A stretch of DNA of 64,000 nt from contig DRKS01000008.1 in NCBI GenBank assembly GCA_011051655.1, forward strand, positions 1-64,000, given 5' to 3'. The number at the start of each line of letters is the position of its first letter. The first letter of the stretch is position 1. Below the pieces are notes generated by a model. That model had not been told where the DNA came from. It saw only the letters and a program-made list of their open reading frames with translations, and made no database searches. This document shows, piece after piece, positions 1,891 to 55,619 of the stretch. The position numbers were made by a program, and so were the translations under genes. This DNA comes from Sedimenticola sp. Lineage in GTDB: Bacteria; Pseudomonadota; Gammaproteobacteria; Chromatiales; Chromatiaceae.

Positions 1891-1981
1891 GGAGAGGTAC
1901 CGAAGCGGCCATAACGGCGCGGACTCGAAATCCGTTGGGGGCGCAAGCCCCACGTGGGTTCGAATCCCACCCTCTCCGCCA
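1891..1981 (+). tRNA. tRNA-Ser (anticodon CGA)
   Basis: A 91-base class II tRNA. The acceptor stem GGAGAGG (1891-1897) pairs with CCTCTCC (1971-1977), followed by discriminator G and an encoded CCA (1979-1981). The anticodon stem CGGA/TCCG closes the loop CTCGAAA, giving anticodon CGA at 1926-1928, which reads UCG serine codons. The variable arm GGGGGCGCAAGCCCC is long, as expected for serine tRNAs, and the T loop is TTCGAAT. A run of five T follows the CCA and may end transcription. It is divergent from mltF. Confidence 0.97.
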
Positions 1982-2059: not shown

Positions 2060-2995
2060 ATGACACCGACCCGAAGCAGAACCGCCGGCCGCCGGCTCCT
2101 TCTTGCCTGCCTCCTGGCTGCATTTCCCTTCTCCTCTTTCTCCCAGCCGGGTACTGTCGAATCTGATCCCTCGGTCGTCCGCATTCTGCCGAAGAATTAT
2201 CCTTTGAACCGGATAAGGGTGGCCGCTCATGAGTATCCTTGGAGCGCAATCGGCCTCCTTACCATGCTTGGAGGAAGATACTCCTGTACCGGCACCCTGA
2301 TTGCCGAGCGGTACGTGCTCACCGCCGCGCATTGCGTGTTTCCCGTTCGGAACTTTCCCGAAGAAATCAATTTTCTCGGGGGATACGAACAGGAGCGGTA
2401 TGTTGCGCACTCCAGGGCAAAAAAACTGCATATGAGCAAGGCCTTCAGGAACCCGAGGCCGTCGCCGGAGGTATTCGCCAATGACTGGGCGCTGGTCGAG
2501 CTCGAGAAACCCATCGGAAGGGAAACGGGTTACCTCGGTTGGGCCTATTTCGATGCCGGCGTCCTTGAAAAAATGGGAAGCGGCACGGGTGTTTTCAAAG
2601 TCTCGGGCTACCGCCGTGACCGAAGATTCGTGCAAACCGTGGACCACCAATGCCGCATCACCGGTTTTACCGCGGACGGCAAGTTGATCATGCACCGCTG
2701 TCCGATCACGGGCGGTGACTCAGGCGGGCCGGTCCTCTTGCCTTACAAAAATGAATTGCTTGTGGTAGGCGTCGATGTCGGCGTGAAAGCGCAACGGGGG
2801 CCCCATTTGAAACGGGGCGAAGCACGGGAGGGCTATGCCGTCCCCTCGGCGGCTTTCCGGGACAAGCTGACCGGGCTTGGCATTGGCGGCGCCCCGATGG
2901 GCCCGTCCGGCAATCTCACCGGACGCGCCGGGAATGCCCCGCTCTCGCCACCGAGGCGGCAAAAGCCAAGGCTGACTACTCCATCGAGCCGGTGA
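2060..2995 (+). CDS. Secreted trypsin-like (S1 family) serine protease
   Basis: A 311-residue exported chymotrypsin-fold protease. The N-terminus has an Arg-rich n-region, a hydrophobic core (LLLACLLAAFPF) and a likely cleavage near residue 28. The catalytic triad is intact: His91 in TAAHC, Asp142 in NDWAL and Ser221 in GGDSGGP. A Cys pair around the His loop (SCTGTL and AHC) suggests the usual disulfide. The C-terminal 40 residues are Pro/Gly/Arg-rich and look unstructured. The fold resembles V8/glutamyl-endopeptidase-like trypsins, but the substrate is unknown. The 3' end overlaps the 3' end of the convergent secA-like gene by 20 bp. No strong ribosome binding site precedes the ATG, which was chosen because the signal peptide begins there. 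Confidence 0.87.
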   Translation: MTPTRSRTAGRRLLLACLLAAFPFSSFSQPGTVESDPSVVRILPKNYPLNRIRVAAHEYPWSAIGLLTMLGGRYSCTGTLIAERYVLTAAHCVFPVRNFPEEINFLGGYEQERYVAHSRAKKLHMSKAFRNPRPSPEVFANDWALVELEKPIGRETGYLGWAYFDAGVLEKMGSGTGVFKVSGYRRDRRFVQTVDHQCRITGFTADGKLIMHRCPITGGDSGGPVLLPYKNELLVVGVDVGVKAQRGPHLKRGEAREGYAVPSAAFRDKLTGLGIGGAPMGPSGNLTGRAGNAPLSPPRRQKPRLTTPSSR

Positions 2996-4958
2996 AACCG
3001 AGGGCCTTTTCAAGCTGACAATCCAGCTTCGTTTGTTCCTTGCGGGTTATCGCATGTTCCCGCTCGGCCCTGGATTGCGCGCGGCGGCGCATCCATTCGC
3101 ACAGCATCGGGAGCGGCAGAAGGCCGGCCAGCCGCATGTGCCTGGGGGCGAATCGCCTGAACAACTCGTCATCCAGGGCGACGATGGCCTCGGTGGACCC
3201 CGGGTCGCCCTGGCGCGCAGCGCGGCCGAAGAGTTGCCGGTCGATCCGGCCGCTTTCATGGAACTCCGTCAGGATGACATGAAGCCCGCCTGCCTCCGCG
3301 ACGCCTTCACCCAGCCGGATGTCGGTGCCGCGCCCGGCCATGTTGGTGGCAACGGTGATCGCGCCCGCCTCGCCGGCGCGGGCGATGATTGCCGCTTCGC
3401 CGCTGTCCTGCCTTGCATTCAGCACCGCGTGATCCAAGCCAAGGCGCGACAGCGCCTCCGAGGCCTTCTCGGAGGCCTCGACGGAGCGCGTGCCGATCAG
3501 GACCGGCCGGCCCTTTGCGCGCAAGCGCGCCGCCCGTTTTGCGACCAGTTCCCAACGCTTCTCCGCATTGCGCACATAGGTGTTCCCAAGATGCCGGCGG
3601 CGCACCCGGCGATGAGTGGGAATCCTCACCGTGAGCAGGCCGAAGGTGTCCCGGAATTCCCCGGCAAGCTCCGTCCCCGTGCCCGTCATTCCGGCCAGGC
3701 GCACATAACGGCGGAAGAAGCGTTGATAGGTTATTCGCGCCAGGGTCTCTTTCTGACCGGTTATCTCGACGCCCTCCTTGGCCTCGATCATTTGGTGCAG
3801 GCCGCCCTGCCAGCTCCGGTCGGCCATGACGCGGCCGGTGAACTCATCGACGATCTGGACGGCGCCTTCGACCACGATGTAATCGCGGCCGTTTTCGAAT
3901 AACAGCAGCGCCGACAGCGCCTGGCTGACCAGTTCTTCCCGCGCCTTCCGGATGCGCCAGAGGCCCTGGAGGTTCCCAGCCAGCCGTTCGACCTCTTTCC
4001 TGCCCGTCTCTTCAAGGGTCACGCTCCGGTTCATCCGGTCGACCTTGTAGGAACGGCCCTCTTGCAGGCGGCGGGCCATCCCGAGCGCCTCGGCGTAGAT
4101 TTGTGTGCGCTCCGGGTCGTCGGCCGTCGTCGACAGGATGAGCGGCGTTCGCGCCTCGTCGATGAAAACACTGTCGGCCTCGTCGACGATGGCGAAGGAC
4201 AGGCCCCGCAGCAACAGCTCCCCCGCCGCCGCGCCGCCAAGGTATTCGAATGTTCTGCGGCGCAAGGCGGAGCGCTTCTGGCGCAATGCGATCCGGTCGC
4301 GCAAATAGTCGAACGTGAGATTCTTGTTGGAGATATAGGTCACGTCGCAACCATAGGCCTTGCGCCGCTGCGCGGGATCCATGTCGCTGTCGATTACGCC
4401 GCAGGTGAGGCCGAAGAATTCGAACACCGGGCGATTCTCCCCGGCGTCCCGCCCCGCCAGGTAATCATTGACCGTGACGATATGGACCGGGTTGCCCGAG
4501 AGCGCGGCCACCACGGCCGCCGGCGTTGCGGTCAGGGTCTTTCCCTCCCCCGTGGCCATTTCCACCATTCGCCCGTCGAACAGCGCGAGCGCCCCCATGA
4601 TCTGAACCGGGTAGTGTTGCTTCCCAAGGGTGCGCCGGCTTACTTCCCGGACGATGGCGAAGGCTTCCGTGAGGGCGGCCTGTCCACGCCCGCGGCACAG
4701 GAGTTGGGAACGCAGCCTTTGGGCCGCTTCGCGCAGCCCGGCGTCCGGCATATCCCGGTACCTGCCCTCCATCCGCCCCACCCGCCAGGCAAACCAGCGA
4801 AGGCGCAGCCGGTAGAAGGGAAGAAAGGTGTAAGCGGCGCCGACCAGCCGATCCAGCCAGCGGTCGACCGCATTGTTGACGGGGTCGGCAAGCTCGGCGT
4901 AGGGGGCCACGCCAAGGCGGGGGGCGCCAAAGCCGAGCATCCCCTGCGCCTCAGGCAC
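2976..4958 (-). CDS. SecA-like preprotein translocase ATPase, C-terminally truncated form
   Basis: A 660-residue SecA paralogue carrying the motor core. It has Walker A GEGKT (137-141), DEADSVFIDEARTPLI (259-274), a preprotein-crosslinking-like region (about 275-385), AGMTGTGTE (422-430), NMAGRGTDIRLGEG (539-552) and motif VI RIDRQLFGRAARQGD (571-585). Canonical SecA is about 850-900 residues. This one stops soon after the start of the helical scaffold, so the two-helix finger, helical wing and zinc-binding tail are absent. That argues for a specialised accessory motor, not the housekeeping SecA. It is the last gene of the operon and overlaps the M50-HlyD gene by 8 bp. The start at 4958 is a GTG with GAGG seven bases upstream. 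An ATG at 4940, also with GAGG at good spacing, is an equal alternative. Confidence 0.88.
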   Translation of the reverse strand: MPEAQGMLGFGAPRLGVAPYAELADPVNNAVDRWLDRLVGAAYTFLPFYRLRLRWFAWRVGRMEGRYRDMPDAGLREAAQRLRSQLLCRGRGQAALTEAFAIVREVSRRTLGKQHYPVQIMGALALFDGRMVEMATGEGKTLTATPAAVVAALSGNPVHIVTVNDYLAGRDAGENRPVFEFFGLTCGVIDSDMDPAQRRKAYGCDVTYISNKNLTFDYLRDRIALRQKRSALRRRTFEYLGGAAAGELLLRGLSFAIVDEADSVFIDEARTPLILSTTADDPERTQIYAEALGMARRLQEGRSYKVDRMNRSVTLEETGRKEVERLAGNLQGLWRIRKAREELVSQALSALLLFENGRDYIVVEGAVQIVDEFTGRVMADRSWQGGLHQMIEAKEGVEITGQKETLARITYQRFFRRYVRLAGMTGTGTELAGEFRDTFGLLTVRIPTHRRVRRRHLGNTYVRNAEKRWELVAKRAARLRAKGRPVLIGTRSVEASEKASEALSRLGLDHAVLNARQDSGEAAIIARAGEAGAITVATNMAGRGTDIRLGEGVAEAGGLHVILTEFHESGRIDRQLFGRAARQGDPGSTEAIVALDDELFRRFAPRHMRLAGLLPLPMLCEWMRRRAQSRAEREHAITRKEQTKLDCQLEKALGFTGSME

Positions 4959-7101
4959 CGAACCACCTCAGGAACAACTGCCGGGTCCGGCGCGCGATCT
5001 GGGCGGCCACCGTCTCATCCCCGTGCTCAAACCGCACCAGCACCCGCGTCCCGAAAGGCATGCCCCGGAGATCTTCGGGCAGGGCGATGTCAAAAACGAA
5101 AAAGGGCTCCATCGCAGCCACGCCGGTCTCGTCGGATGGGTCCACGAGGATGCGTCCCCCGCCCGCCTGCCCCAACGCGGGACTGGGAAGGGTCCCGAGC
5201 GCGGAGGGTACGGCGCGAATCATCGAGGACTCGTGCCGCTGGTCCAGGTATCCGGAAACCTTCAGGGCAACGCCGGTCAACCGGTCGCGCACCAGGGCGG
5301 CATCCTCCTGCGGCACGGCCACGCGGATCCGGTCGGCGGACTCCGGCAGGATATAGCCAATCAGGTCGCCTTCCTGAACGAACCGGCCCAACATGTCCTC
5401 CGGCGGCAGCGTGGGCTCAAACCGGCCGGCCGTCCCCGCCCGCACCTCCAGTTCCATCGCCCGGCGCGCCTCGCGGTCGCGCTCGGCCTCAACTTCCTGC
5501 ATTTCCAGCCGTGCGATCCCGGCCTCCACCCGGTCCGAGGCCTCGGCCGCAAGGAGCCGCAGCCGCATTTCCCGGACCCTTGCATCGAGCGCCTCTATGC
5601 GGGCGTCCAGCGTCGGCTCGGTGAGCCGGACCAGCAGGGCCCCCGCGGCCACCTCGCCCGAGCGGCCGGCGGCCACGCGCTCGACGAAGCCCGACGTGCC
5701 GGCCCGGACATAGGCCTCGTCGGGCAACCAGATCACCCCCTCCGCGTCGGTCCTGAGGGGAAGCGGGACGGCGAGGACAAACCCGGCCACCGCGGCCATG
5801 GCGCCGAAGGTCCAGCGCTGGGCCCTCCGGCGGACCTTGCGGAGCTTCGGCGATGTCATGACGTGCCGGACATGCCTGAAGACCGGCTTCACCACCGCGT
5901 TGAATATGGACCACAGCGCAATGAGCACGCCGACGACGAAATAGGACGACGCCACGAAGAGCGCAATGCCGAGCATGACATACATCCGGTAGAGAAACGC
6001 CGCCGGGGCGTAGACCAGGAACCAGACCCGTTCCCCCCGGGTCGACGGACTCCGGCGCAGGCGCTTTGCCCCGAAGACGTATCTCTGGATGAGGTAGCCC
6101 AGGTACTGGTTGGCCCGGTTGGCGAGATTCGGGATCTCGAACACGTCCGTGAGGACATAGTAGCCGTCGAACTTCAGCAGCGGATTTCCGTTCACCACCA
6201 GCGTCGAGATCCCGCCGATGAGTACGAGATTGTAGGCGAATGCCGAGACGATGCCCTGCTCGGCGTTCGCCCAGACCATGACGGCAACGGCCGCCACGAA
6301 GATTTCGACAATGATCCCCCCGGCGCTGACCGCCGCCCGGTGCCACTTGTTGCGAAACGCCGCCGCGGCGGACGCATCGACATAGGGCACGGGGAAGAAG
6401 ACCAGAAACATGATCCCCATCTCGCGGACTTCCCCGCCCCATTTCTTTGCGAGATACCCATGCATCAATTCATGCGCCATCTTCATCAGCGGGTAAGTGA
6501 CGAGCGTGATGAGGAGGTTCTCGGCCGCCAACATGCGGTCCGCGATATCAAGCGTCAGGCGGTCCCAGTGAAGCCCGGCCGTCGCCACGCCGCCCGCCAC
6601 CACCAGGAACCACAGAAACAGGCCGAACCAGCCGATAAACGGCCGCACGAACGGCAGGGTCTTTGTCAGGAAGGCATCGGGATCCCACAGGGGGACGCGG
6701 ATCGTCAGCGGGTTCATCAGGTTCTGCTTCACGATCTGGCGGGACTGCCGGTCGTACCGTTGCAGCAGTTCCGAGACGTCGGGCGACCCCTTATACTGAA
6801 TCAGGTCCTGCTGATGCAGGCGGCTCAGTAACTGGATCACATCGTCCTGGCTGGGCGCATCCCTGTCCCGCGTCTCGGCAAGGGAGCGCCAGATCTCATC
6901 GACGCTGTGGGCGCCGTCGAACCGGCCGATCAGCATATAGGCCGCCGGGGTGAACCGGTGAACACGCCCCGCCCCGTGGTCGTGCAGCACATACCACGGC
7001 TGGCCGCGGTAGCGATGGCGATGCACTGTCACATGCGCCCGGAGCCTTGGCCGAAGCCCTGCGACCCTGTACCAGAGCGTGGAGAGAAAGGCCTCTTCCA
7101 T
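4951..7101 (-). CDS. PqqD-like / M50 zinc metallopeptidase / HlyD-like fusion protein
   Basis: A 716-residue membrane protein with three parts. Residues about 15-105 resemble the PqqD winged-helix fold (WYVLHDHGAGRVHRF, FDGAHSVDEIW, LLSRLHQQDLIQ); related domains bind leader peptides in peptide-modification systems. Residues about 150-405 form an M50 intramembrane protease with zinc motif HELMH (210-214) and the second motif NPLLKFDGYY (306-315), plus several membrane helices. After a last helix (about 431-447), residues 450-716 form a HlyD-type barrel-sandwich and hairpin adaptor in the periplasm. This layout matches the putative peptide zinc metalloprotease family found with export systems. 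It lies 6 bp after the GAF-HlyD stop and overlaps the SecA-like start, so translational coupling is likely. All zinc ligands appear intact. Confidence 0.88.
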   Translation of the reverse strand: MEEAFLSTLWYRVAGLRPRLRAHVTVHRHRYRGQPWYVLHDHGAGRVHRFTPAAYMLIGRFDGAHSVDEIWRSLAETRDRDAPSQDDVIQLLSRLHQQDLIQYKGSPDVSELLQRYDRQSRQIVKQNLMNPLTIRVPLWDPDAFLTKTLPFVRPFIGWFGLFLWFLVVAGGVATAGLHWDRLTLDIADRMLAAENLLITLVTYPLMKMAHELMHGYLAKKWGGEVREMGIMFLVFFPVPYVDASAAAAFRNKWHRAAVSAGGIIVEIFVAAVAVMVWANAEQGIVSAFAYNLVLIGGISTLVVNGNPLLKFDGYYVLTDVFEIPNLANRANQYLGYLIQRYVFGAKRLRRSPSTRGERVWFLVYAPAAFLYRMYVMLGIALFVASSYFVVGVLIALWSIFNAVVKPVFRHVRHVMTSPKLRKVRRRAQRWTFGAMAAVAGFVLAVPLPLRTDAEGVIWLPDEAYVRAGTSGFVERVAAGRSGEVAAGALLVRLTEPTLDARIEALDARVREMRLRLLAAEASDRVEAGIARLEMQEVEAERDREARRAMELEVRAGTAGRFEPTLPPEDMLGRFVQEGDLIGYILPESADRIRVAVPQEDAALVRDRLTGVALKVSGYLDQRHESSMIRAVPSALGTLPSPALGQAGGGRILVDPSDETGVAAMEPFFVFDIALPEDLRGMPFGTRVLVRFEHGDETVAAQIARRTRQLFLRWFGA

Positions 7102-7107
7102 CGCCGG

Positions 7108-8967
7108 TCAGGGCTGCCAGGTCCAGGCGAATTCCCGCAACCAGTCGATCAGCCTGCGGGACCAGACCCAGACGATCAATTCCTGCCCGGCATCGATCTT
7201 GGCCACGCCCTTCATCCCCGGGCGCACCCCCTCGGGCAACGCCGCAAGGGTCGCCTCGACCCGGAACGTATTGGTGCTGTCATGGATCTCCGAAACAGGC
7301 GTGATGCGGGTGATCACGAAGTCAAGCGGCGCTTCGGGACGGCCGGTGAGGGTAAGCTGCCCCGACTGCCCCTGTTCCACGTACCGCATGTCGCGTTCAT
7401 CGACGAAGATATCGAGCCGGAAGGCATCGAGGGGGGCGACCTCGAACAAGACCTCGCCGGGTTGAACCGGCGCGCCGAGCCGCTGGCTGAGATCGCCGGA
7501 CACGACCAAACCGTCGATGGGGCTCTTGATCCTGGTGCGGGCAAGCTGGGTGTTGGTGAGCGCGAGCTTCGCCTCCGCCTGGGATATCTGCGCCTCGAGA
7601 AAAGCCACCTGCGCACGCTTGTGCTGCGCCTGGGCGTCCCGCAGCTCCGCCTTGAGGCGGTCGCGTTCGGATGTCCAGCGGAGTCTTTCCAGCACCAGAT
7701 CGGCGCTGTCGAGGCGGGCAAGCTCATCTTCGGCGGCCACCACATCCCCGGCGCGGACTGAAGCCGTCTCGATAAATCCGTTGAACGGGGCCACCGCCGC
7801 GCGCACGACGGTTCCACGCACGACGGAGTCGGCGTTGATCCGGAAGGTCCCCTGGACCGTCGCCGCGGCAATGCCGAGACCTGCCAGGAGCAGGGCGAGC
7901 AGCTTCCAGCTCAACCGGCGCGGACCGAGAAGGACGCCGAGGCCGTGCACCAGCGTGTCCCGGATCCGCCCGCCGATCCAGCGCCGGTTCTGGCGCTTGA
8001 GCTCGATCACCGGTCCGGCCAGGGCGGCGACACTCTCGAGGAGCCTGCGCTCTTGTTCGGAAAAGGCCTCCCCGCTGCGGCGCTCCACCGAAATGACCCC
8101 CACCGGGCCGGCCTGGTCGAGCAGCGGAACCGACATGATGGAATTCATCCGGGAACCTGCGACATGGTCCTGGTGGGCGAAGGAAATCACGCGTTCGGTC
8201 GCCGGCATCGGCGGCACCGACACAGTTGCATTCTGGTCGAACGCCTCCTCCATCGCAGTCTCAAGGCGCTCCGCAACCGCCGAGCGTTTCCGAAACCAGG
8301 CCGAATAGGACATGGCCAGCAGCCGGATCCTCGGCGCCGTGTGGCGGCGCTCGATCATGCCGATCGAGATCTGATCCGCCTTCAGGGCCAATTGCAGCTC
8401 GTTCACCATGGCCATGGCCGCCGCCTCGGGACGGCGGTGCTCGCTCATCAACGCGAGGAGATCCAGTGCAACGGCCGCCCGCGACACCTGTCCCGCCTGC
8501 TCGTCGGCAAAACCGGCCCAGACCTTCGCGGCCAGCCAGCCGGCCGCCCAATGCATTTCACGCAGCGCGGCCTGGGTGTCGCCTTTGTTCGGGGAGGCCA
8601 GCTCGACGGCGATGACCCGGGATACCGGCTGGTCATCGATACGGACGGGATAGGCGCAGTAGGCCGGTGCTTCTCCGACAATGGCCGGCCGGCCGCTGCC
8701 CACGACCTTTTCGATAACGTCCTGGAAAACGGTCAGGTCACGCCGGGGATCGGGGGCGATGGCGGCAGGCACGAAGGCCCCCTGGGCCGGGTCCGCCTCC
8801 ATCACGACGCCGAGGGTGGCGCCGGGCAGCTTGGTCAGCAGCAGCGCCAGCCAGCTGGTGAGGAAACCGGCGTCGTCCCTGGCGTTGATGAAAGAGGCCC
8901 ACAGCCCGGAATCCAGCGTGATGGGCTCATCAGAGGCGGCATCGCCCCGCGTCGTCGAGATCGACAT
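7108..8967 (-). CDS. GAF domain / HlyD-like periplasmic adaptor fusion
   Basis: A 619-residue inner-membrane protein. A cytoplasmic N-terminal half holds a GAF-like sensor domain (about 165-320, with SVPLLDQAGPVGVISVERR). One membrane helix (about 352-371) then leads into a periplasmic HlyD/membrane-fusion region: a barrel-sandwich half-motif (about 380-420), a short coiled coil (about 420-480), the second half-motif TRIKSPIDGLVVSGDLSQR, and a C-terminal beta-barrel ending near WSRRLIDWL. HlyD proteins bridge an inner-membrane exporter to an outer-membrane channel; a GAF domain on such an adaptor suggests the assembly senses a cytoplasmic signal. The start is ATG 8967 with AGGGGG just upstream; its initiation region is tandemly duplicated. 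The next gene follows after 6 bp. Confidence 0.87.
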   Translation of the reverse strand: MSISTTRGDAASDEPITLDSGLWASFINARDDAGFLTSWLALLLTKLPGATLGVVMEADPAQGAFVPAAIAPDPRRDLTVFQDVIEKVVGSGRPAIVGEAPAYCAYPVRIDDQPVSRVIAVELASPNKGDTQAALREMHWAAGWLAAKVWAGFADEQAGQVSRAAVALDLLALMSEHRRPEAAAMAMVNELQLALKADQISIGMIERRHTAPRIRLLAMSYSAWFRKRSAVAERLETAMEEAFDQNATVSVPPMPATERVISFAHQDHVAGSRMNSIMSVPLLDQAGPVGVISVERRSGEAFSEQERRLLESVAALAGPVIELKRQNRRWIGGRIRDTLVHGLGVLLGPRRLSWKLLALLLAGLGIAAATVQGTFRINADSVVRGTVVRAAVAPFNGFIETASVRAGDVVAAEDELARLDSADLVLERLRWTSERDRLKAELRDAQAQHKRAQVAFLEAQISQAEAKLALTNTQLARTRIKSPIDGLVVSGDLSQRLGAPVQPGEVLFEVAPLDAFRLDIFVDERDMRYVEQGQSGQLTLTGRPEAPLDFVITRITPVSEIHDSTNTFRVEATLAALPEGVRPGMKGVAKIDAGQELIVWVWSRRLIDWLREFAWTWQP

Positions 8968-9991: not shown

Positions 9992-10324
9992 CTACCCTTC
10001 GAGTTTCCCATAGCGCGTTTCATGTTCTTCAATCAGGCGTATCATCATGTCCCTCAGCCGCTTTGCGGCATGGGGCGACATCACGATCCGGTGTTGCAAG
10101 GCAACCTCCAGGCGCTCGCGGTTCATGTCCCAGTTTTCGTTGACGCCGAAGTTGATCACCACCTCCTCGCGGGTGGATGAGCCATTGCAGACGTTGCAGT
10201 AGCTGCTCTTCAGGTCGCTGGTGTTGAAAGCAACCTGCGAGGCCCCGCGGGTGGCCTGCCGTGGTTTCGGCTTGGCCTTTTCCGGGCCTGTTTCGCCGTT
10301 GCTCTTGGTTTTCTTTTCACTCAT
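9992..10324 (-). CDS. DUF3467 domain protein
   Basis: A 110-residue soluble protein. The first 40 residues are Lys/Pro-rich and charged. The rest matches DUF3467: a YCNVCNGSSTREEVVINFG strand region followed by AKRLRDMMIRLIEEHETRYG helices. The biochemical role of DUF3467 is not known. The gene starts 31 bp after the giant gene's stop and is surely co-transcribed with it. Its position between a giant secreted protein and its probable export genes suggests a cytoplasmic chaperone or regulator; that is inference. The start is the ATG at 10324, because longer readings run back into the giant gene. Confidence 0.85.
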   Translation of the reverse strand: MSEKKTKSNGETGPEKAKPKPRQATRGASQVAFNTSDLKSSYCNVCNGSSTREEVVINFGVNENWDMNRERLEVALQHRIVMSPHAAKRLRDMMIRLIEEHETRYGKLEG

Positions 10325-10355: not shown

Positions 10356-13300
10356 CTATGGGTTTGTGAACGGGATCCTGAATGCGCCCGCCGCTTCCGG
10401 GCTCTCCCGGCCCGCCGCATGTTTGAAGGCCGCGGCCGCATCTGGCCCCGCTCCGTGCATCAGTTCCACCCCGTCCGCCTCGAGCGAAAGAATCCCGATC
10501 CGGCCGAGACGCCGCCCGCGGCGGCCCTGCCTGATCTGCAGCGCCGCGAGCAGAACAACGCCGGCGGTGGAAGCGCCCGGGGCCGACTGAACCGTCACGG
10601 TCGCCCGCCCTTCGGCATCCTGCGCGAGATCGACCTCCACGCCCTCCGCAACCGGCGCGATGCCGGCCAGCGCCAGGGCATCGGGGTCGAAGCCGAGGCC
10701 GATGCGGATTTCCCCGACGCCCTCGATCCCGCTCATGACCAGCGGCAGCAGGCCGTCCGCCAGGAGATCCGGATCGATCAGCCCAGGCGCCTCCACCCCG
10801 GCGCCGAGCAGCGTTAGGTCGACGCGCAGTTCGGCCCGGTCGCCGTTCTGCTCCGCCTCCATGGCCGGTCCGGGCAGCGACACGGCCATGGCGGCTCCGA
10901 AGTCCAGTTCGGCGGCGTCGGCGCCTTCCCGGCCGCTGCCGCCATTGATCGAGACCACGCGCAGTTCCAGCCCGGCCTCTTGCAGCGCCACAACCGGATC
11001 CGCGCTGCTTTCGACCGCAAGCCGCAGAAGCTCGGCCACCGGGGCATCGTAGGCCTTGCCGAAGGTCAGGACCACCCGGAGGTTGCCGTCCTCCCGCAGC
11101 ACCCGGATCTGCGCATCCTCCGGCAGGTCCGCCCCCGGAAGGATGTCGCGGATCAGCACAGTCGGTGCGGCGCGGTGGATTTCGAGCACGATCTCCAGGA
11201 TCCCACCCGCGGCCTCCATGAGCAGCGGCAGTTCAAATGTGTGCGCCGCAGACAAGCCACCGGGCCGGCGGCCTGCGTGGATGAAGCCGAAGCCGCCGGA
11301 AGGCGCCACAGGGAGATTGGGGCTAAAGGACGGCGCGGAGACAAAGGAACTGGACCCAAAGGAACCGGAGCCAAAGGCCGGCGGAGCCGGAGGAGCTCCG
11401 AAGCTCAAGGGGGGCGGAGGATTGCCAAAACTCAGGGTGGCCGAGGAGGCGCCGAAGCCCGAAGTGGAAGCGAAGGGGTCGCCGCCGAACGGGAACACGG
11501 GCGGAGGAGGAGGCAGCGGCTGCACCGGTTCCGGGTGTGCGGTGTCGAAGGTCAGGGTGATACCGTCCGGAATATCGGGGATCAGCGGGCTGTCGAAACC
11601 GAAGAACTCGGAGCCGATGAGGGAGGCGTCCATCCCGGTGATCGCGCCGTCGAGGTTCACATCGGCGATCAGCAGCCCGTCGATGCCGGCCTGCCAGCCC
11701 GGGAGCGAGGTGTTCCCGGTCACATCGAGCACGTTCGCCATTGCGGCGTCGTCGTCGCTGAGGGCGCCGTCACCGTCGATATCGCCCACATAGCCGATCA
11801 GCAGCGTGAATTCCGCGGGGTCCTCCAGCGGATCGGGCGCCTCGCCGTTCACCTGCAGCACCTGGAGGCCGATGTCGCGCAGACCGCCGTAGGGGGCATC
11901 GTCCGCCACCGTGGCGAGCAGATTGAACAGGTCCATCGCGCCGGCCCGGGGCGGCGTCGGCAGGGTCACCGTAATCTGTCCGCCGAAGACCTGGACAGAG
12001 GCCCCCGCCGGGGCATCGGCGCCAAGTACCGCATCGACGGCGGTCAGGATGCCATCCGGATCGATCAGGCCGAATACGATGGAGGTCACCCCAGATCCAA
12101 CCGTAACGGAAACCGGCACGCCCCCGCCCGGCAGCGGCTGGCCTGGACCGGCCACCATGGGGCCGGCGGCGACCGAGACCGTTACGGAGGCCGTTGCGGC
12201 GACCACCTCCAGGCCGACCGTCAGGCGGCCCACCTTCCCGTCCGGATCGGTTGCGCTGATGATGACTTCAGCCGGGCCAATGTTTCCGGTGCTGTCACCG
12301 CTGATTTCACCCGTATCCGGGTCCACCGAAATCCAGCCGGGACCGGACACCTTGGCGAAGACGAGCTGTGCGGGATCACCATCGGGGTCGCTGACCTCGG
12401 GCAGGATCGACAGCGGATCGCCTTCGATGAGCGTCACCGGATCAATGGTGGCGAATACCGGCGGCGCCTGGACATCGACGCTGAAGGTCGTCTCATCCGA
12501 GAGGCCGCCGCCATCGGTCACGCGAACGGTGAAGCCCTGCTCACCCGCAAACCCGGTGCTGTCCCAGGTGACCGCACCGGTGAGCGGGTTCACGGCGGCG
12601 CCCGCCGGCCCGGTAACGAGTTCGAACGCCAATTCCCCTGGCGCCGCATCCACATCCGTCGCAACAAGCTGGACCTCGACCAGATCACCGGCGGTCACTG
12701 CCAGCGGATCGACATCGTCCAGAACCGGCTTGTCGTTCACCGCATTGACCTTGATGGTGACAGTGGCGACGCCGGAGTTGAATTCACCGTCGAACAGGCG
12801 GTAGGTGAAGGCATCCACGCCGTTTTGGTCCCCGGCCGGCGCATACTCGTACTCACCACCGCCCAGGGCAGTCAGCGCCCCCATGGCCGGACCGTCCAGG
12901 ATCTCGATGACCAGCGGATCACCCTCGGGATCCTCGTCATTGGTCAGCAGCGAAACAATCACCGGCGTGTCTTCGTCGGTCTCGGCGGCGTCATCCACGG
13001 CAATGGGCGCGGTATTGGTTGTCAGCCCGAGGAGGCGCACGTCATCGACAATGGCCGAGCTGTCGACCACGCCGAGCCCGATCAGGTCGAAGGACAGCGT
13101 CAGGGCATCCGGCAGGGTCAGGCCCTGGAACGGGACCGTGACGATCAGCCCGCCACCCTGCTCGACAATGCCGACGCCATCGGCGGCACGGCGCGTGCCA
13201 TCGGCCTGGATGTTGAGAAAGGCATCGGTCCGCGTCAGGCCGTCGATCCCGAGGACCGGCTCCAGCTTATCCGGATCCATCAGGGCGACCTCGAAGGCAT

Positions 13301-16300
13301 CGGGCGCCGCACCATCCGTTGCGTTCAGATCGAGCTCCTTGATGACGAACTGCAGGCCGGTTGCCCCGGCCGGCACCACGAAGGTCTGGCTGAGCCCGGT
13401 CATGTCGATGCGCTCTTCGGCCAGAACCGCCTCACCCGCGACAACCGACACGTCGCCGGTGCTCATCCAGCCGTTCAGACCGTCGTTGAACCTGCCGTTG
13501 GTGAAGGGGCCGGCGGCGCTGGACAGCACAGCCGGACCAACCCCTTGGACCTGGGCGGCGGGCTGCGCATTCCCAGTACCACCTGCCTGCGGATTGGACA
13601 GGACCGGCGTGCCTCCCGCGCCATTCGAAGTAGCACCCGGGTCAATCGAGAAATCCCCGACATCCGGTCCCGATGGCAGCCTGCGCATGCCGGCGTCGAT
13701 GACAGGCGTCATGACATAGCCGTTACCCGTGGGGTCAAGAAGATCCTGGAGACCCATCGCATTTCCGGACTCATGGAGCAGGACTGTCAACAGGTCGATC
13801 GAATCGGCCGCCTCGCCCGCAGAAGCCACGAACACGTGTTCGTCGTCGGTAGCCTCGAACTCGGAGGAATCAAGCGGAGTCGGATCGACAAACCAGCCAT
13901 TTCCGGCGGCATCCGGGTCGATGGTGATGACACCATTCTCATACCTCCCCAGTGCTGCGCCATCAAGATCCTCAACGCTGACAATCACGTTATCCAACAG
14001 GCTTTGGGCGCCCGGCACCAGGGCGCTGTCGATCCAGATGCCCTTGGCAACCTCGTAGAGGGCCTTGGCCGCATCCAGGGTAATGGTATCGGCACCCGAC
14101 CCCACGCTGGCTGCCGTTTGATTGGAACCGTTGCTGGTGAACTTGACGTTGTCGATGACCATCACCACTGACACGGCATTGGCCACGGCCTGAATGAACC
14201 CGAAGTTCGTGAAGTAACTTACTACTGCATCACTGAAGCCCTGGACAGGCGCCCTTTCGAGACCGGTATTGCGCAGAGTCAGGTTCGCCACCTTGCCCTT
14301 CACTTCATCGGGAATCTTGAACTTTGCAACCTGGGTCGAGAAGAAGCTTCGATCAAAGGTAAATCTGTCCCTTTCTTCAATGATGCCCGCATCGTTCTTG
14401 ACCAGCGCCTTGGCCCGATACCGGGAACCATCCGTCAAGGTGAAGATGGCCTCGGCCTGGACATCAGGGTTGGGATTGAACGGCAGGAAGGCGTCGAACT
14501 GCACGAAGTCCATGTTTTCGGGCACGTACAGGCGGTTGTGGGTCAGCTTGTCGATCTGGCCAACCCTGTTGAGCACGCCATCAAGTGCCTCGGCAAACAT
14601 CTCCGGCAAGTTGTAATTGTTGCCGCCGACCTCAAATTCGACTTCCGGAATGAAGGTCTTGAACAGCTCCTTGATCGCCTGGGTGCCGCCAAAGATGAGC
14701 CCATAATCGGGCTTGTTGTCGAGACCAAATACGTGGACGACGATGGCCTCCAGGTTCTTCTTGATATAATCGGTGTAGGCCTTTATCGCATCTGCCTTCG
14801 CCTTTGTGGAGGCAGCAATGGTATCGGCATTGGTGTTGTCAATCTGGCGGTCCAGTATCTTTACCAGGGACGGAGCATTGCCGGTGATATCAGCACTGTC
14901 CCCGATATAGGGCTTCAGAAAATCCTTCACATACGGGTCATCGGCGACCTTCTTCAGGGCCACATCGATAATGGCGGCCAGCTTGGTAATGATGACCTTG
15001 TCGTCGATGATGAACTGGGCCACGGCACTGGCATTGTCGGTGAGCGCGGATGCCGACATCAGGATATTGCCGTTATCGTCCTCAATTCTCTGATCGGCCC
15101 CCGTGCCAATGAGCTTGCCCTGGAGCTGGTCAGCAAAATCCTTGCGCGCCTTGTTGTCGATATCGGTCGGTGTCGCAAAATCATAAAGACCCGAAAGGTA
15201 CTTATCAGCCAGTTTCCCGAGCAGCATATCGATGACCGGTTTGATCACCCGCCCGAGCACGTCGAGGAACTCATAGGCGAGATTCTGATTGACGAGAAAC
15301 TTACCGGTTATATCCATGGGCCCATCGAGGCCCCAGCTACCAATATTGCGCCCACTGAAGAGGTCGAAGGTATAGGATATCCCTTCATCCACCGGGCCCT
15401 GGGCATCATCCGGACTGCCGTCGATTCCACCATGCATCGACCAGCCCGGAAGATCGTATTGCAGGGGGAACCGCCCAAGCTCCGGCGGAAGGTTCGGGAT
15501 CGCCTCGGCCACACCGGATGCACTGAGTTTCTTCGGACTGGTCGGCGTCGGGGAGTTTCCACCCCCACCAAGCAATTTCTCCTTCAACTCGGTAAGGCTT
15601 GTCGCCCCCTGGATACGCGCGGTATACACCGACTCGAGCAACCACTTGATGTAATCGGACATTGCGTGGCGGGTTCCGGCCTGGAAATCACCATTGAACA
15701 CGGTGGGGACAGGCTCGTACGACGAGCCCGGTGGCAGGACTGGCCGGTCTACCTCGGTGTTATCGTAGTCCAGCTTCGTCCGTTTTGTTGGATCGGGTTG
15801 AGGCCGAAGCGCTGGGTCACCCGCGACTGCGGAGAAATAGAAACCGGTCCCAACGGCCTCGTTACGGGTATTGTTGGTCCCACGTGTCACCGGGTTGACA
15901 TTGGCATTCTGGAAATATTGCTGGAAATACGACTTGACCTGGCTGAAGTCGCTCGAGAACGCGACCGGATCCACGCCGTACCATGGCCGCTTGTCAAACT
16001 TCTCCCCGAACAGATTGTTAAACAGATCAAGCCCTCGGCGGAAGAAAATACCGAGGACACTGTTTCCCTCAGAAGGGTCTTTTGCCGATCCGACAACCAG
16101 CCCCTCGTCACCGGCGGTACGGGGTATTGTCTGTCCGGCCACATACAGGGAATTGACATCCGCCGTCCCCAGGTACCAGTTGGTGATGCGGCCATGGGGC
16201 CCTGCACCCAGATCATCGTAGATGAACCCAGGCACCCCTGGAGGGGCAGTGAAATTGAGCTCGATATCCGGCTGGCCGATACCGTAAGCCGCCGTCGGCC

Positions 16301-19300
16301 GGTTTCCCGGGCCATCCTTGGATGTCGGTATGGGCGTTCCGTTTGGTGTCGTTACCTGGGTAAACTGAAGGCCAAAGATATCCGTCCAACTCGGGGCAGA
16401 GGATTCCTCCGCAGTCGTCTGGTAGTAATTGTCAGCAAAATCGACATTGGACCAGACTTGCACATTGGGATCCTTGAAATCGCCAAACTGGATCTGTCGC
16501 AGTTGCAGGCCGAGAATGCCGCCAAGATCCATGAAGATCTGCGCGCCCTGTTCCACAGCGTCCAGGACCCGGTAGGCGGTCCGCCCAACGGCAGGATTGA
16601 CGAAGCTCGTCGCCACCGCAGCGAACTTGGCCGCCTTGAGCCAGCTATTGAGGATCTTCTCGGCCTCGACGTTCAGCGTCTGTTGTTTGAAATCGTGCGG
16701 ATCCAGCGTCGTCATCTGGATGTCCATATCCATGGCCGGAAAGCGTGCCCCCAGGCGCTGGATGATCTCGGAGTTGACCGAGGTCCCGCGGCTGTGCCCG
16801 ACAAAATGGATTGGACTGTTCCAGACCTTGTCCGATTGCGTCGCCTCGTTGAAATCCACCAGGGCGGCAAAGAATGCATCGGCCGCCGCCTCTGAGAAAC
16901 CGCTGTCGGAGAGGTTGCTTTCACGGTACCAGTCCATTACCAGCGTAACCGCCTCGTCATTGGGCAATGAGGCAGGATTGACTGGCGAGCGCTCGATCCG
17001 GTAACCCTGCAGTCCGTTGGGATCGTACTTGTGGAATTTGCCGGTCTGCCGGTTGTAGACGAGGATGGTGCCGCCACCCGCGCCTTCGTTCAAAATGGTT
17101 GCATAGTCCAGCCATGCCGCGAGATTGGACTCGGACAACGCGGTATTGGCAAAGTCCGGCAGCAATCCAAACGGTTGGAAGCCATGAGTCAGAACCTGCA
17201 CCGTGGCGAACTCTCCCGGCGAGGTAATGACTTTGTCGGTCTCGAAACTGGCCGCCGCATAGGCAGAGCCACCGGGACGCTGCACCTCGATCCCCCAATA
17301 GTAGGTCTGGGATCCGGTCAGGACGCGCTGCAGGGCAGGATCAACCTCTATGATCACACCCTGCTTAGGATCGTCATTGTCGGTCAGGTCACCCCGATCC
17401 AGCTCACCCAGACGCTCGATGGCACCATCGGCTTTCAACTTGTAGCGATAACCCGACTCAAAGGCCCACGGTTGCTCACGCTTGGTATTGACCAGCCGCC
17501 ACGGGTGCCAGTCCGGCCCGCCAGTAGGCGCGCTATGGCGCCAGGCATTCCTTTCGCGATACGGGTCGGTATCAAAGAGTCCCTCTCCCGGTTTCTGGGT
17601 ACTGAGGAAGAGGTTCGCTTTCCAGGATGTCTGTCCCACCTTGGCGGGATCCAGTTGCACTTCGAATACCAGAGATTCCGCAGTGTCACCATGTACCTGT
17701 TTCTTCCCGCGCGGAGACAGCAGTTCTATACCGGTCTCGCTCTGGATGTCCAGTCCCCGCCCCCAGTAGGCGATATTGAGGCCGGGTTCATAGATCCCCT
17801 GACGGATAATGGGATCGCCGATACCGAACAGGCCCCGCTGGAGATCGACCGGCTTGGTCCGGTTTTTGCCCAGGTTGAATCCGTTCACTTCCCTGTCCGA
17901 GGCAATGATCAGGTTGTCCACGTTCATCGTGGTCAGTGAACCCGACCTCCGAAAATTGGCGAGGAGCTGCGTCCCGTCTGGCCTCAAGGCGATCTCGGTC
18001 AGGTACTGGTCCGGGATCGGGCTGGTCGAACCAACATGTGCAGCCGCACCATATTCGTAGGGCTTGCCAAGTTGGTCCCATTCCTCCCGCCTCATGTTAA
18101 AGGGATTCCGGATCAGGCCGACTTTGTTGCCCAATTCATGTAAAGCCTCGATATAGTAGGGTATCAGGCTATCCGAATAGGTCAGGTAACGCGACAGGTC
18201 GTAATCGGCAACAAAGGCATAGCTAAGATCCGGCATGAGCGCGACCCCGGCCGGATAACGGATATCGAGGTCATAGCGCTGCTGGCTGGAGGGGACATAC
18301 TGGTCGATAACGATAGTCGTAAGGTAAAGAGGAAGAATGAACGGTTCATACCTGACACCGATCTCCTCCTTGTTGAGCTGGAGCGGCATAACCAGGAGCT
18401 GCTCGCTACCCTCCGTGTTGGAAGGCAACCTGGTGCGAATGGCGCTGTAGGCATCGGGATCTTCATTGAGGACGTTGATCGTATAGAAGCCCCTCTTGTA
18501 GTCACCACGAGCAGTAAATACGAGCTTGCTGGAATCGCCCGAAGCGGCCTCTATATCGAAGGGATCCTTGCCGCCGTTCAGCGTCCCGATGACCTGCAGG
18601 TAATTGGTCGGCCCGCTGTTTCCCTGTGGGGCCGTTTCCGGGTCCACGTTGATCACGAAGATCTTGCCCTCGGTACGGCCACCGCGTGCCCAGCCATCCG
18701 GCCCGAACATGCCACTGTAAGGGACAGCAACATAGAGTTTCTTGCCATCGGCATCAAGCTCGATATCGTTGATCTTGCCCCCCGTGAGTTCAGCGGCACT
18801 GGCCGGAATCGGCAAGGCAATCTCTCTTACGCTGAGATATTGGTTGGACGATTGGTCCAGATCGACCATGTGAATCTTTCCGGTACCCGCCGCGTACAGG
18901 TAACGGCCATCGTTGCTTAGCGCGAGTGAGGTGACCATGCCGCCGGGGACTTTTATTATGTTGACGCCAGGGGCATCAGGATTCACGTCATACTGCTTGA
19001 GCGTCAGCATGTCGACCACGGCAATGCCCTTCCTGTGGGCCACATAGGCCGCCGACAGATCGGGCGCCATGATGATTTGCTGCGGCCAACCCCGTAATGG
19101 CACACCACCATCATCGAGAAAGATTTCCTTTACGACGGCATCGGGTTGCCCACCAGGCCCGCCAAGCCCGGCCGCCGCGATATCGAACACCTGCACCATG
19201 GTATCGCCGTAGTGCGCAGGGTCCTCCGAGGAACCACCGACGATACCGTAGCCCTGGGTATTGGCAATGGAAAATTCGACCGAACTCTCCGGCAGGAGTG

Positions 19301-22300
19301 GCATTGGAGCCCAACCGCCGATATTTCCGGGCTGCATTCCATCGGGAGCCCTCTGGAATGTAATCTGGGCCTTGGTGGCAAGAATGGTGTTTGGCACATC
19401 CAGCGCAATAACCGCCCCCTGTTCCCCGGGTGTCTCCGATATCACCTGGAAGTCAATCCCGGGCACATACTCGGTATAATCGCCTATCCTGAATTCCACC
19501 CGGCTATCGCTCAATTCGGTGCCAAAACCGGGGCCGGTGGCAGGATCCCGGTAGAGATTCACGCCCGAGATGACGAGCTGAGTGTTGCCGTCAGGCGTGC
19601 GCTGGACATCGACATCGATAATCCCCGGCGGTTCTCCCGGCGCCGCCAGGTAAGGTTCGTCCGGAAGGCTGGCCTCGAGGTTGATCCGGCCATTTGTACC
19701 AACGACGTTCACGTCGAGCCGTTGTTGGGACCAGTCCCGGCCCTCAAGGAAATTCTGGTAGATGTCTATACGCTGCTGGCCCGGCGACATCTTGAAGAAA
19801 GCATAAGTGGCACCCGCGGCGATGCTCAATCCCGCCAACGCTCCGGGCAGGCCGCCGACTGCAAGACCGATACCCATACCAGCCACGACAGCAACCATGC
19901 CCCGAGCCAGGGTCGCCGCATAGAGCGAGGCATCCTGCAACGGCTGGTTGGCCCTGGCGACAAGGTAGTTGCCACGGTCACTCAGGCCGGGGAAAGGCGG
20001 CGATGCCGTGCGCGCAACACCGTCAGCGCCAACCCTGCCGCTGTCAACCAGGCGCCATATCTTGCCATACTGGCCATTTGTCTGAACCGTAAAGTCGTCC
20101 TGGATGAAGAAGAACACCTCTTCTCCTTCGGAAGCAATCCCCGGGGCCACAGGTGCTGCCAGTTGGAAGGTGCCATCGATCTCGCCGCCGACCACGTCCA
20201 CCGCCACACCACCGATGAAATCAAAATCGGGCGGTACCGGGATTTCAAGATCATTTTCCGAGAGCGTGTTGATCGAAACAGTGGGGGTCTCACCGCTGAT
20301 CACGCCCCTCCCGAAGGTGACCTCTACACCATCGGCATTTCGCAATGCCCCCCCCTCTTCTCCGATCTGGGCCTCGTCCCCGATAACAGGCGGTTTGACC
20401 GTAACATCAATGACCTCTTCGGCACCGCGATAGATGACCGTCACGTTAGTCGTACCCTCGCCCACCGAGTGAATCAACCCGTCGTCATCCACTGTCACGA
20501 TGTCGGTATTACCCGACACATAGACGACGCCATCCTCGGCCCCCTTTACGTAGCGCGTGCCAATCGTGCCGACTTCTGTGACAACCTGGCGGGTGCCTCC
20601 TTCAGGAACGATAGTCACGGCATCGGGATAGGCATCGATCCCGAAGATCCGCGCAATTCCGCCAAGGCCGTCCGTCGGGAAACCAACCGATGCCGCTGTC
20701 GCCGCCGCAATGCTGCCTCGCGCTGCCTGGATATAGGTGTCACCATCGTCCACCGCCGTAATAAGGCCGTTCTGGCTTACCTTGACAACGCCGGGGTTGT
20801 CGCTGATGACATCCACATAATCAAAAGGCAAAACGACATCGGCCTGATCCTCAAACTGTCCGACCACGACCAGTTCGCCCACCTCGCCGGGGTTTTCGAA
20901 ATTGAACTCACGCATCAGAAATTGCATGGAGGTCAGGTCAGCATCAGAGACCTCCACATCAAGCGTAATCTCGCCGGTGGCGCTGAACCCGTCGTCGGCC
21001 ACCAACGTAAGCGATCCGACACCCGAGAATCCGGCCTCGGGGCGAATGCGGATAAACTCGCCATCGGCGGAGAAGCTCGCCGAGACATTGTCGGCAGACA
21101 CCACTCTGAAGAACACCTGGTCGCCATCCTGATCCTCGGCGATCTCGTCCAGTTCAACCAGAACCGGCAGTTCCTCGTGGGTAAAGACCTCCGGCAGCAG
21201 CGTGGCAACGGTCGGTACCGCATTCCTGGTAAGTCCAAAATTGGCATTTAGGATCTGCCTGTCCTGCCCGTCTACCATGCCTTCTCCGGTGATATCGGTC
21301 CCGGCCCCGGCGGCGGTCAGCAATCCGCTGTCAACGCCGTCCACGGCACCGTCACCGTTGAGGTCAGCAGCCGCGGAAATCAGCATTTCAACATTGTCCG
21401 GCGCATCGACATCAAGGCGGAAGAAGCCGGGATCATCGATGGCGAACAGCGCCACGGTCCGGCCTCCGAAACGCACGAGGCTGAGGGGAGCCGCATTATC
21501 GAGTATGGGAGTTGCAGTCTCGGAGGACAATTCAATCCGCAGTATCAACCGGTCGGAGGCGGTGCTGAAAATCTCGCTTTCACGGATCGTAAGGGAATAG
21601 GAGACCGTCTGATCCGCACCGGGCACGGCAACCGTTCGCCCGGTGAACTGGTTCAGACCGCCAAGATCCTCGGTGATCGGGCGTTTGGTGACCGCACCGT
21701 CCGAACCATACTCAATCGTCCACCCCGTTCCGCCGATTTCAGCCAGGACCGTGAGTCCGTCTGCACCATACCCGTAGCGCGCCCCCTTGCCCGTTTCGAG
21801 GTCACGCACCCCAATGAGTCGTCCAGCATCATCATAGGTATAGACAGTGCTCTGGCCATCAGGCGTGGTTGCCCGGATGATTCTCCCCGCATCATCGCGC
21901 AGAAAGCTCAACACGTCGCCGGTTGTCGATGTCACTCCGCTGTCACCGACAAACAAGCGTTCTCCTCCCACACGCATTTCTTGCACTTCACCCGATGAAT
22001 CCAGCACGTAGACGACGCCCTCGGGAGATGCCAGTTCAAACGGGACCTGCCCGCCAACCAGTGGATCGGTCGGGTTATAGGGCAACCCATCCTCGGAGGT
22101 AAAATACTGGCCGCCGGACTTACGCAGAAGGGTCTTGACGGAATTCAATACCCAACCGCTGTCATTATCGGCCTGCCAGGCCGGCTGATAAAAGGTAAGA
22201 CTTCCGACTTCCTCATTTTCGGGCTGAAAGGTGAATCCCATGCGCTCACCGGTCGGCACCGTCAGGTAAAGCCGGTCACCAACCCGCAGGGGGTTGAAAA

Positions 22301-47659: not shown

Positions 47660-48490
47660 ATGCGGAAGCCAATACATTTTTTCAGCGCTGTGGCAACGAT
47701 ACTGGCCTGCGGGGCGCAGGCGGCGTATGCAGACTATCCGGATCCGCTGCGTTGCCTCATCGAAGCAAGCGACACCGTTGAGTTGTCGAGCCCTGTCGAG
47801 GGCATAATCGCGGCCATCGAGGTGGAGCGCGGTGATTATGTCAAGGCGGGCCAGACCATTGCGCGGCTGGACACCCTGATCGAGACAATCAGCCTCAAAC
47901 TGGCCAGGCTGCGGGCAAACAACACCGCCGCGATCCGTGCCCGGGAGGCCCGGTTGGAATTCCTTGTATTGCAGGCCGAGCGCAGCACGAAACTCGCCGA
48001 GCGCAAGACCATTTCGGAGGCCAAGCGGGATGAGGCCTTGCAGGAGGCCGAGGTGGCCAGGCAGGAACTTCAGGCGGCCCGGCTGGATCTGGAGATCGCC
48101 AAGCTCGAAGCCAAAAAGGCCGCGGCCCTCCTTGAGCAGAAAGTACTGCGAACCCCGATCAACGGGGTCGTGGTCGAGCGGCTCCTGAGCGCCGGCGAGT
48201 ATCAGGCCGGCGATACAAAGATCGCCACCATTGCCAAGGTTGACGTCCTCCACGTCGAGGCCATTGCGCCGATCGATTATTACAATCGGCTTTCCGTCGG
48301 AGACATCGTGACAATCCGGCCCGAACAGCCCATAGGCGGGGCATACGAGGCCAGAATCACCGTGATCGACCATGTGCTGGATGCGGCAACCGGCACCTTT
48401 GGGTTTCGCATGGAGCTGCCAAACAAAGACAACGTCCTGCCGGCAGGCCTCCGCTGCACCGTAGAGTTCTCACCGCCCCCGGCGAACTGA
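47660..48490 (+). CDS. HlyD-like periplasmic adaptor (membrane fusion) protein
   Basis: A 276-residue exported protein with an N-terminal signal peptide (hydrophobic core FFSAVATILACG, cut near AYA-DYP). Then come the first barrel-sandwich half-motif (SSPVEGIIAAIEVERGDYVKAG, written here as positions 43-64), a long Ala/Glu/Lys-rich coiled coil (about 75-165), and the second half-motif VLRTPINGVVVERLLSAGE. A C-terminal beta-barrel completes the fold. Adaptors of this size link an inner-membrane pump to a TolC-type channel, but neither is encoded in the window. It is transcribed divergently from the giant gene and is probably part of its export system. The ribosome binding site is weak (GAGATAGAG). 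Confidence 0.85.
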   Translation: MRKPIHFFSAVATILACGAQAAYADYPDPLRCLIEASDTVELSSPVEGIIAAIEVERGDYVKAGQTIARLDTLIETISLKLARLRANNTAAIRAREARLEFLVLQAERSTKLAERKTISEAKRDEALQEAEVARQELQAARLDLEIAKLEAKKAAALLEQKVLRTPINGVVVERLLSAGEYQAGDTKIATIAKVDVLHVEAIAPIDYYNRLSVGDIVTIRPEQPIGGAYEARITVIDHVLDAATGTFGFRMELPNKDNVLPAGLRCTVEFSPPPAN

Positions 48491-55506: not shown

Positions 55507-55515
55507 CCTCAACCG

Positions 55516-55546
55516 ATAGCCGGCGGGCGGGATGTCCGCCGGTTAT
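55516..55546. terminator. Hairpin 1 between the cytochrome and subtilase genes
   Basis: ATAGCCGGCGG (55516-55526) pairs with CCGCCGGTTAT (55536-55546) across a nine-base loop, with one G-T wobble. It starts nine bases after the cytochrome stop. No T run follows, so it may end transcription Rho-dependently or protect the mRNA 3' end. Confidence 0.45.
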
Positions 55547-55563
55547 CCCTTCCCGGAAACAAA

Positions 55564-55593
55564 CGCGGGCAAGGGAGCCCTCCCTTGCCCGCG
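55564..55593. terminator. Hairpin 2, perfect 14-bp inverted repeat before the subtilase gene
   Basis: CGCGGGCAAGGGAG (55564-55577) and CTCCCTTGCCCGCG (55580-55593) are perfect reverse complements with two bases between them. The repeat ends 26 bases before the subtilase ATG. There is no T run. It could be a terminator, an mRNA stabiliser or a block on translation of the downstream gene. Confidence 0.45.
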
Positions 55594-55619
55594 CCCTCCA
55601 AGTAAAAAGCGGACCGGCA

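Follow-up and report, generated by a model that had tools for sequence, protein, structure and literature searches.

A SecA motor without the two-helix finger as a putative export ATPase for giant LEPR-XLL proteins

The first 64,000 nucleotides of contig DRKS01000008.1 (positions 1 to 64,000 of the forward strand; assembly GCA_011051655.1, Sedimenticola sp.), hereafter the window, contain on the minus strand a 660-amino-acid open reading frame (ORF) at 2976..4958, which is an intact SecA motor without the wing, the two-helix finger, and the zinc tail. Based on its gene neighborhood, we propose with moderate confidence that this short SecA is the ATPase dedicated to a cassette for the export of giant proteins bearing an N-terminal LEPR-XLL domain, forming a SecA-powered, type-I-like exporter that lacks an ATP-binding cassette (ABC) transporter. 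The cassette has the order giant protein, DUF3467 protein, GAF-HlyD adaptor, PqqD-M50-HlyD fusion (M50-HlyD), and short SecA, and a third HlyD adaptor is often added. We file the window gene under the secondary SecA_DEAD proteins, which were published together with their type-I-like locus by Kamneva, Poudel, and Ward in 2015 (PMC4452313). A preliminary description of the window, made from the sequence alone, missed this publication and did not connect the motor with the giant encoded in its operon.

The short SecA ORF begins with GTG. Pfam identified SecA_DEAD (residues 54-436; 346 bits), SecA_PP_bind (284-392), and P-loop_SecA (460-551) in the 660-residue protein, and Walker A, Walker B, PPXD, and motif VI were all found. 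No Pfam match was obtained for SecA_SW, which comprises the scaffold, wing, and two-helix finger. Pfam and NCBIfam recognize the protein as SecA up to residue 551, and its scores are below the NCBIfam equivalog cutoffs for SecA (NF009538, 599 versus 814 bits; TIGR00963, 592 versus 800 bits). An AlphaFold2 model (mean predicted local distance difference test score, 85.7; predicted template modeling score, 0.84) can be superposed over 587 residues on a SecA that was solved in complex with SecY (6itc_A), with a Z score of 42.6 and a root mean square deviation of 2.6, and stops at about residue 612 of Bacillus subtilis SecA, equivalent to about residue 661 of Escherichia coli SecA (2fsf). By sequence and model, NBD1, PPXD, NBD2, and approximately 40 residues of the first scaffold helix are kept (the last as residues 617-656, at 2991..3110 on the minus strand, delimited by the model), and the wing, two-helix finger, linker, and zinc tail are gone. 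The translation ends in LGFTGSME (2979..3002, minus strand) without a CxCGSG zinc-binding motif, and 76 residues follow motif VI, compared with a median of 82 in 60 relatives. These results bear out the preliminary description, which had reported a SecA-like ATPase with its motor motifs intact through motif VI, an end about 70 residues later at residue 660, and no finger, wing, or zinc tail.

Short length alone could point to a pseudogene, a frameshift, or an assembly artifact, an explanation that we give almost no credence. The same end is present in 65 complete relatives, the motor motifs are intact, and the artifact explanation is refuted because the C-terminal ending is conserved. The source genome (3.12 Mb in 103 contigs; 96% complete) contains a full-length SecA on another contig (a frame of 976 amino acids with a CPCGSG tail), and the sole SecA_SW match of the genome sits within that protein, neither downstream of the short gene nor elsewhere. 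The earlier observation that no missing domains are encoded just downstream also stands, as that region is occupied by a trypsin-like protease gene (2060-2995, plus strand). A frameshifted or split gene was rejected, as SecA_SW is confined to the full-length SecA both here and in all but one of the 34 named cassette genomes. Full-length SecA is likewise present in 33 of these 34; in the exception, the metagenome-assembled genome G276, neither a long SecA frame nor SecA_SW was found. SecA_SW supplied in trans was not found in the cassette genomes: the second match in G284 spans 31 residues, is below the cutoff, and lies inside its short SecA.

Relatives were gathered with the window M50-HlyD as the query, both from a same-class sample of 274 genomes, 36 of which matched, and from a species-wide collection that yielded at least 587 stretches; locus counts out of 80 refer to the best 80 of the latter. 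The SecA matches above 150 bits number 70, of which 65 are complete at the 3′ end. All 65 end at the same place and possess Walker A, 60 have a standard motif VI, and 62 have a LAFSGRxE-like C-terminal motif, represented in the window by LGFTGSME. In the aligned family (n = 43), SecA_DEAD, PPXD, and P-loop_SecA are present in 43/43 and SecA_SW in 0/43. Columns invariant among canonical SecAs, counted over 29 of 31 canonical rows (those over 780 amino acids) and 43 short rows, are kept at 53/84 in NBD1, 12/21 in PPXD, and 57/85 in NBD2 but only 4/17 in the scaffold fragment, which marks that helix as re-purposed. In a tree from which one very long branch (L062) was excluded, the 59 short and the 35 full-length SecAs fall on opposite sides of a single branch, with a Shimodaira-Hasegawa-like approximate likelihood ratio test (SH-aLRT) value of 100. 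The full-length SecA of the source genome (L001) clusters with gamma- and betaproteobacterial SecAs, and its short SecA has a Rhodobacteraceae copy as its sister (67-68% identity); these differing positions suggest that the cassette moved horizontally. Separately, weak and divergent SecA-like proteins neighbor M50-HlyD at four loci (L112, L120, L135, and L136; that of L135 scores 42.8 bits with SecA_DEAD) and are perhaps decaying or re-purposed motors.

The gene upstream of the short SecA encodes the 716-amino-acid M50-HlyD fusion (4951..7101, minus strand). In the window and in 51/70 loci, a start codon is available to SecA 7 bases upstream of the final base of the M50-HlyD stop codon, giving an 8-bp overlap that points to translational coupling of the two genes. 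Residues 37 to 101 (6799..6993, minus strand) form a PqqD-like domain of the leader-binding type (PF05402, 24.5 bits; cutoff, 23.4), and a solved PqqD structure (3g2b) matches this N terminus at an E value of 5e-6; the PqqD Pfam match is present in 21/40 aligned M50-HlyD proteins. The M50 motifs HExxH and the distal NPxxxxD are found in 40/40 of these relatives, and the Pfam M50 profile scores 23.6 bits on the window protein, under its cutoff of 27.2. The adaptor end adopts a MacA/HlyD-type fold (Z, ∼14), and the N-terminal part gives fold matches to GdmN and Rv2067c chains (Z, ∼10.9), to which we attach no reading. The 619-amino-acid GAF-HlyD adaptor (7108..8967, minus strand) was identified by domain scan and conserved neighborhood. 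The order GAF-HlyD, PqqD-M50-HlyD, short SecA was found repeatedly in Pseudomonadota, Nitrospirota, and Thermodesulfobacteriota, and annotated plasmids have the same cassette order, with the SecA labeled “translocase” or “DEAD/DEAH box helicase.” The proposal in the preliminary description that the motor couples to translocation through operon partners is well supported by this conserved gene order.

The probable cargo is a giant repetitive protein of 12,294 amino acids (10356..47240, minus strand), in whose scanned parts laminin-G-like, PPC, and CARDB repeats were detected. Its N terminus bears a LEPR-XLL domain (FDTFEPRLLLSADL; 47049..47117, minus strand; NF012209, 34.3 bits; cutoff, 17). 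By sequence, LEPR leaders are shown to lack a Sec-type hydrophobic core: mean hydropathy over 12 residues reaches 2.0 in 0/28 LEPR N termini (median, 1.34), compared with 1.7 to 2.6 for five cassette signal peptides by the same measure. This lack makes a dedicated reader plausible. PqqD binds the leader of PqqA, and the PqqD-like domain of M50-HlyD is therefore a candidate that could, by analogy, read the LEPR leader.

The distribution of LEPR-XLL proteins ties them to the cassette. LEPR-XLL was found in 19/274 same-class genomes, 17 of which have an M50-HlyD match, and it occurs in 15 of the 21 genomes with a strong M50-HlyD match versus 4 of the 253 others (Fisher P = 1e-16, a value that overstates independence because the genomes share ancestry). 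Among the 34 named cassette genomes, 30 have LEPR-XLL, and 31 of their 43 LEPR genes lie on the same contig as a short SecA and no more than 50 kb from it. Multiple short SecA copies occur in nine genomes, seven of which have LEPR genes in equal number, including three in which one SecA copy is weak. On plasmids, a short SecA is carried by all six records in which the match to the window giant extends through the LEPR region (query from residue 40-41), and the cyanobacterial records of the plasmid list match the window giant only in the repeats after that region. In Methylobacterium extorquens AM1, the cassette corresponds to META1p2399-2402 (PMC4452313), and a reported island starting at CDS 2402 holds META1_2412, a protein of 15,831 residues (PMC2680597); in our own reading, the META1p and CDS numberings agree.

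Several observations weigh against this reading of motor and cargo. Gene order speaks for it, with a SecA match after M50-HlyD in 75/80 named loci (in L087 and L097 the short SecA is elsewhere in the genome, and L124, L140, and L143 end before it), but this adjacency is biased upward because these loci are the closest among more than 587. In G206 and G190, which possess GAF-HlyD, M50-HlyD, and a LEPR protein, the only SecA is the full-length one. At the loci and genomes looked at, with no short-SecA search made across the whole class sample, a short SecA was not found in 7 of the 19 LEPR genomes (G052, G076, G177, G190, G206, G213, and G224), and two of the 19 (G076 and G213) gave no M50-HlyD match at E ≤ 1e-20. 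Conversely, 4 of the 34 named cassette genomes and five short-SecA genomes of the class sample (G008, G179, G258, G264, and G265) gave no LEPR match, and no short SecA lies close to 12 of the 43 LEPR genes, several of which cases may be due to contig breaks. A Vibrio LEPR-XLL protein is reported also to have C-terminal RTX domains (PMC10868602), which suggests ordinary type I secretion for that protein. Moreover, co-location is no proof of cargo, and all of the evidence is genomic. The link between the LEPR giants and the cassette is thus strong but not one-to-one. An obligatory link between short SecA and the cassette was rejected, as M50-HlyD stands without a SecA neighbor at L034, L036, and L050. 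A short SecA is located elsewhere in G081, is missing from G206 and G190, and was not found in G052 and G094, where the cassette runs off the contig end. Nine more distant M50-HlyD loci (L054 to L062) have a single SecA neighbor, a divergent one at L062.

Under the favored reading, export would start from the giant, whose LEPR-XLL leader without a hydrophobic core is evident in its sequence. The PqqD-like domain, at the cytoplasmic end of M50-HlyD, would bind this leader, as its homology to PqqD suggests. The short SecA, coupled translationally to M50-HlyD, would then grip the chain with its PPXD clamp and drive it by ATP hydrolysis, probably docking via the altered scaffold helix and the C-terminal LAFSGRxE motif; the motor and clamp themselves are present in both sequence and model. 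Three HlyD-type adaptors and a TolC-type pore could carry the chain in a single step through the periplasm and the outer membrane, in the manner of type I secretion minus the ABC transporter; the adaptors are encoded in the window and TolC-type proteins at some related loci, and their assembly is presumed. The intact M50 site may trim the leader or control a gate, and the conduit through the inner membrane would be either M50-HlyD or SecYEG.

Laboratory truncations of E. coli SecA bear on the choice of conduit. Fragments N649 to N668, cut at the same place as the short SecA, are hyperactive ATPases that open SecYEG channels and move 0% of pOmpA (PMC5456053), and SecA-N68 binds SecYEG with high affinity, retains peptide binding and constitutive ATPase activity, and cannot translocate (PMC5603524). 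The implication of the preliminary description that a motor without the finger cannot use SecYEG goes beyond these data. It is possible, if rather unlikely, that the short SecA is an accessory motor resembling SecA2 that feeds LEPR giants into ordinary SecYEG, with the HlyD proteins acting on the periplasmic side only or taking the chain from SecYEG. Channel opening and high-affinity binding by the fragments, the retained PPXD, and cassettes with housekeeping SecA alone would all fit such a motor. However, those same fragments move no pOmpA, the scaffold helix next to the lost finger keeps 4 of 17 canonical-invariant residues, and the LEPR leaders lack the hydrophobic core typical of Sec substrates; in addition, no second SecY was present among the window proteins scanned, and no conserved one was present in the neighbor clusters inspected. 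Because E. coli fragments of the same shape move no pOmpA, a natural short SecA would need another coupling of ATP use to movement, and M50-HlyD, as the co-translated partner, is the leading candidate for it.

The missing finger, which moves substrate in canonical SecA, and the properties of N68 would also suit a targeting or unfolding factor, in which the short SecA holds the nascent giant unfolded and delivers it while a different ATPase pushes. We consider this improbable, as no other ATPase is conserved in the cassette. No ABC transporter was present among the window proteins scanned, with the rest of the genome not searched, and none is conserved among the neighbor clusters, the sole ABC-type cluster occurring in 8/80 loci at scattered positions. 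Returning to a SecA-powered exporter, one specific form would be independent of SecYEG and act in one step, with M50-HlyD as the conduit, the PqqD-like domain as the reader of LEPR-XLL, and a finger-less SecA that threads proteins of 5,000 to 14,000 residues through HlyD and TolC. We advance this form only tentatively. If it is true, SecA could move polypeptide without the two-helix finger and without SecY, and LEPR-XLL would be a new class of N-terminal leader.

The DUF3467 gene (9992..10324, minus strand; PF11950, 63 bits) belongs to an ORF open to 10441, which would not overlap the giant gene if translation starts near 10324; DUF3467 lies upstream of the cassette in many relatives, and its gene cluster is present in 22 loci. 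Between DUF3467 and GAF-HlyD, the window contains a PEP-CTERM protein gene (9058-9777, minus strand), where the annotated plasmid relatives have nothing. The third HlyD adaptor (47660..48490, plus strand; PF16576/PF13437) has an evident signal sequence, is divergent from the giant gene, shares a protein cluster with the HlyDs of the cassettes, and is probably accessory. A TolC-type OEP gene cluster occurs in 11/80 loci, with PF02321 confirmed in all three members scanned; no TolC-type protein was present among the window proteins scanned, the source genome not having been searched for TolC. A SapC (PF07277) cluster, verified in three members, also occurs in 11/80 loci (L094, L095, L102, L103, L108, L116 to L118, L130, L139, and L144), in or beside the cassette and in several loci between M50-HlyD and SecA.

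Other neighboring genes were noted in the window. The trypsin-like protease is predicted to be secreted, and its gene converges on the short SecA gene and overlaps its stop codon. A tRNA-Ser(CGA) is located at 1891-1981 (plus strand), approximately 1 kb past the end of the short SecA gene, and tRNAs are typical borders of genomic islands; the AM1 island with META1_2412 is reported likewise to end at a tRNA (PMC2680597). On the plus strand, positions 53863-58132 encode a multi-CxxCH heme protein (cytochrome-c7-like) followed by a subtilase and a PpiC-type isomerase.

The 2015 report left cargo and role open, and little is understood of how bacteria export proteins longer than 10,000 residues; a link between these two questions yields a specific, testable system. 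In all probability, the cassette serves specifically to export some of the largest bacterial proteins. Because evolution has kept finger-less SecA motors, the short SecA family also constitutes a natural test of the purpose of the two-helix finger. In the open-licence literature, nothing on this system was found for combinations of SecA, HlyD, PqqD, M50, and giant protein, nor were LEPR-XLL cargo, a PqqD-like reader, or the C-terminal motif found for it; none of the LEPR-XLL publications found there concerns export machinery in its accessible text.

Among known systems, the secondary SecA_DEAD locus is the closest. The 2015 report describes an additional SecA_DEAD gene from which SecA_SW is wholly or mostly missing, in a conserved locus with M50-HlyD, GAF-HlyD, a further HlyD, and sometimes OEP; its authors proposed SecA_DEAD as the ATPase and M50 as the pore, replacing the ABC transporter, and termed the broader role of these proteins completely unknown (PMC4452313). 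The window gene is likewise a second SecA_DEAD gene without SecA_SW, with M50-HlyD and GAF-HlyD beside it (4951-8967), a likeness by description and not by comparison with the 2015 sequences. LEPR, PqqD, DUF3467, and giant proteins have no occurrence in the main text of that report (PMC4452313), and the present analysis adds to its account the link to a cargo, the PqqD-like domain and the C-terminal motif, as well as the 8-bp overlap and the existence of genomes that lack a short SecA. E. coli N68 and N649 to N668 share NBD1, PPXD, and NBD2 with the window protein, and N649 to N668 also share part of the first scaffold helix; these are translocation-inactive laboratory truncations, whereas the window protein occurs naturally, in a family that has a C-terminal motif and partners of its own. 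The accessory Sec system likewise has an additional SecA, SecA2, that handles only part of the cargo. SecA2 proteins are known to retain the two-helix finger, and all four NCBIfam SecA2 models score the window protein far below their cutoffs (TIGR04397, 526 versus 1085 bits; TIGR03714, 479 versus 930; TIGR04221, 428 versus 725; NF012136, 404 versus 1100). Type I secretion has HlyD adaptors and very large repetitive cargo in common with the cassette, and at some related loci also a TolC-type outer membrane protein. It relies, however, on an ABC transporter, in place of which the cassette has a SecA-type ATPase and a membrane M50-HlyD fusion, and its signal is C-terminal, whereas that proposed for the cassette is N-terminal.

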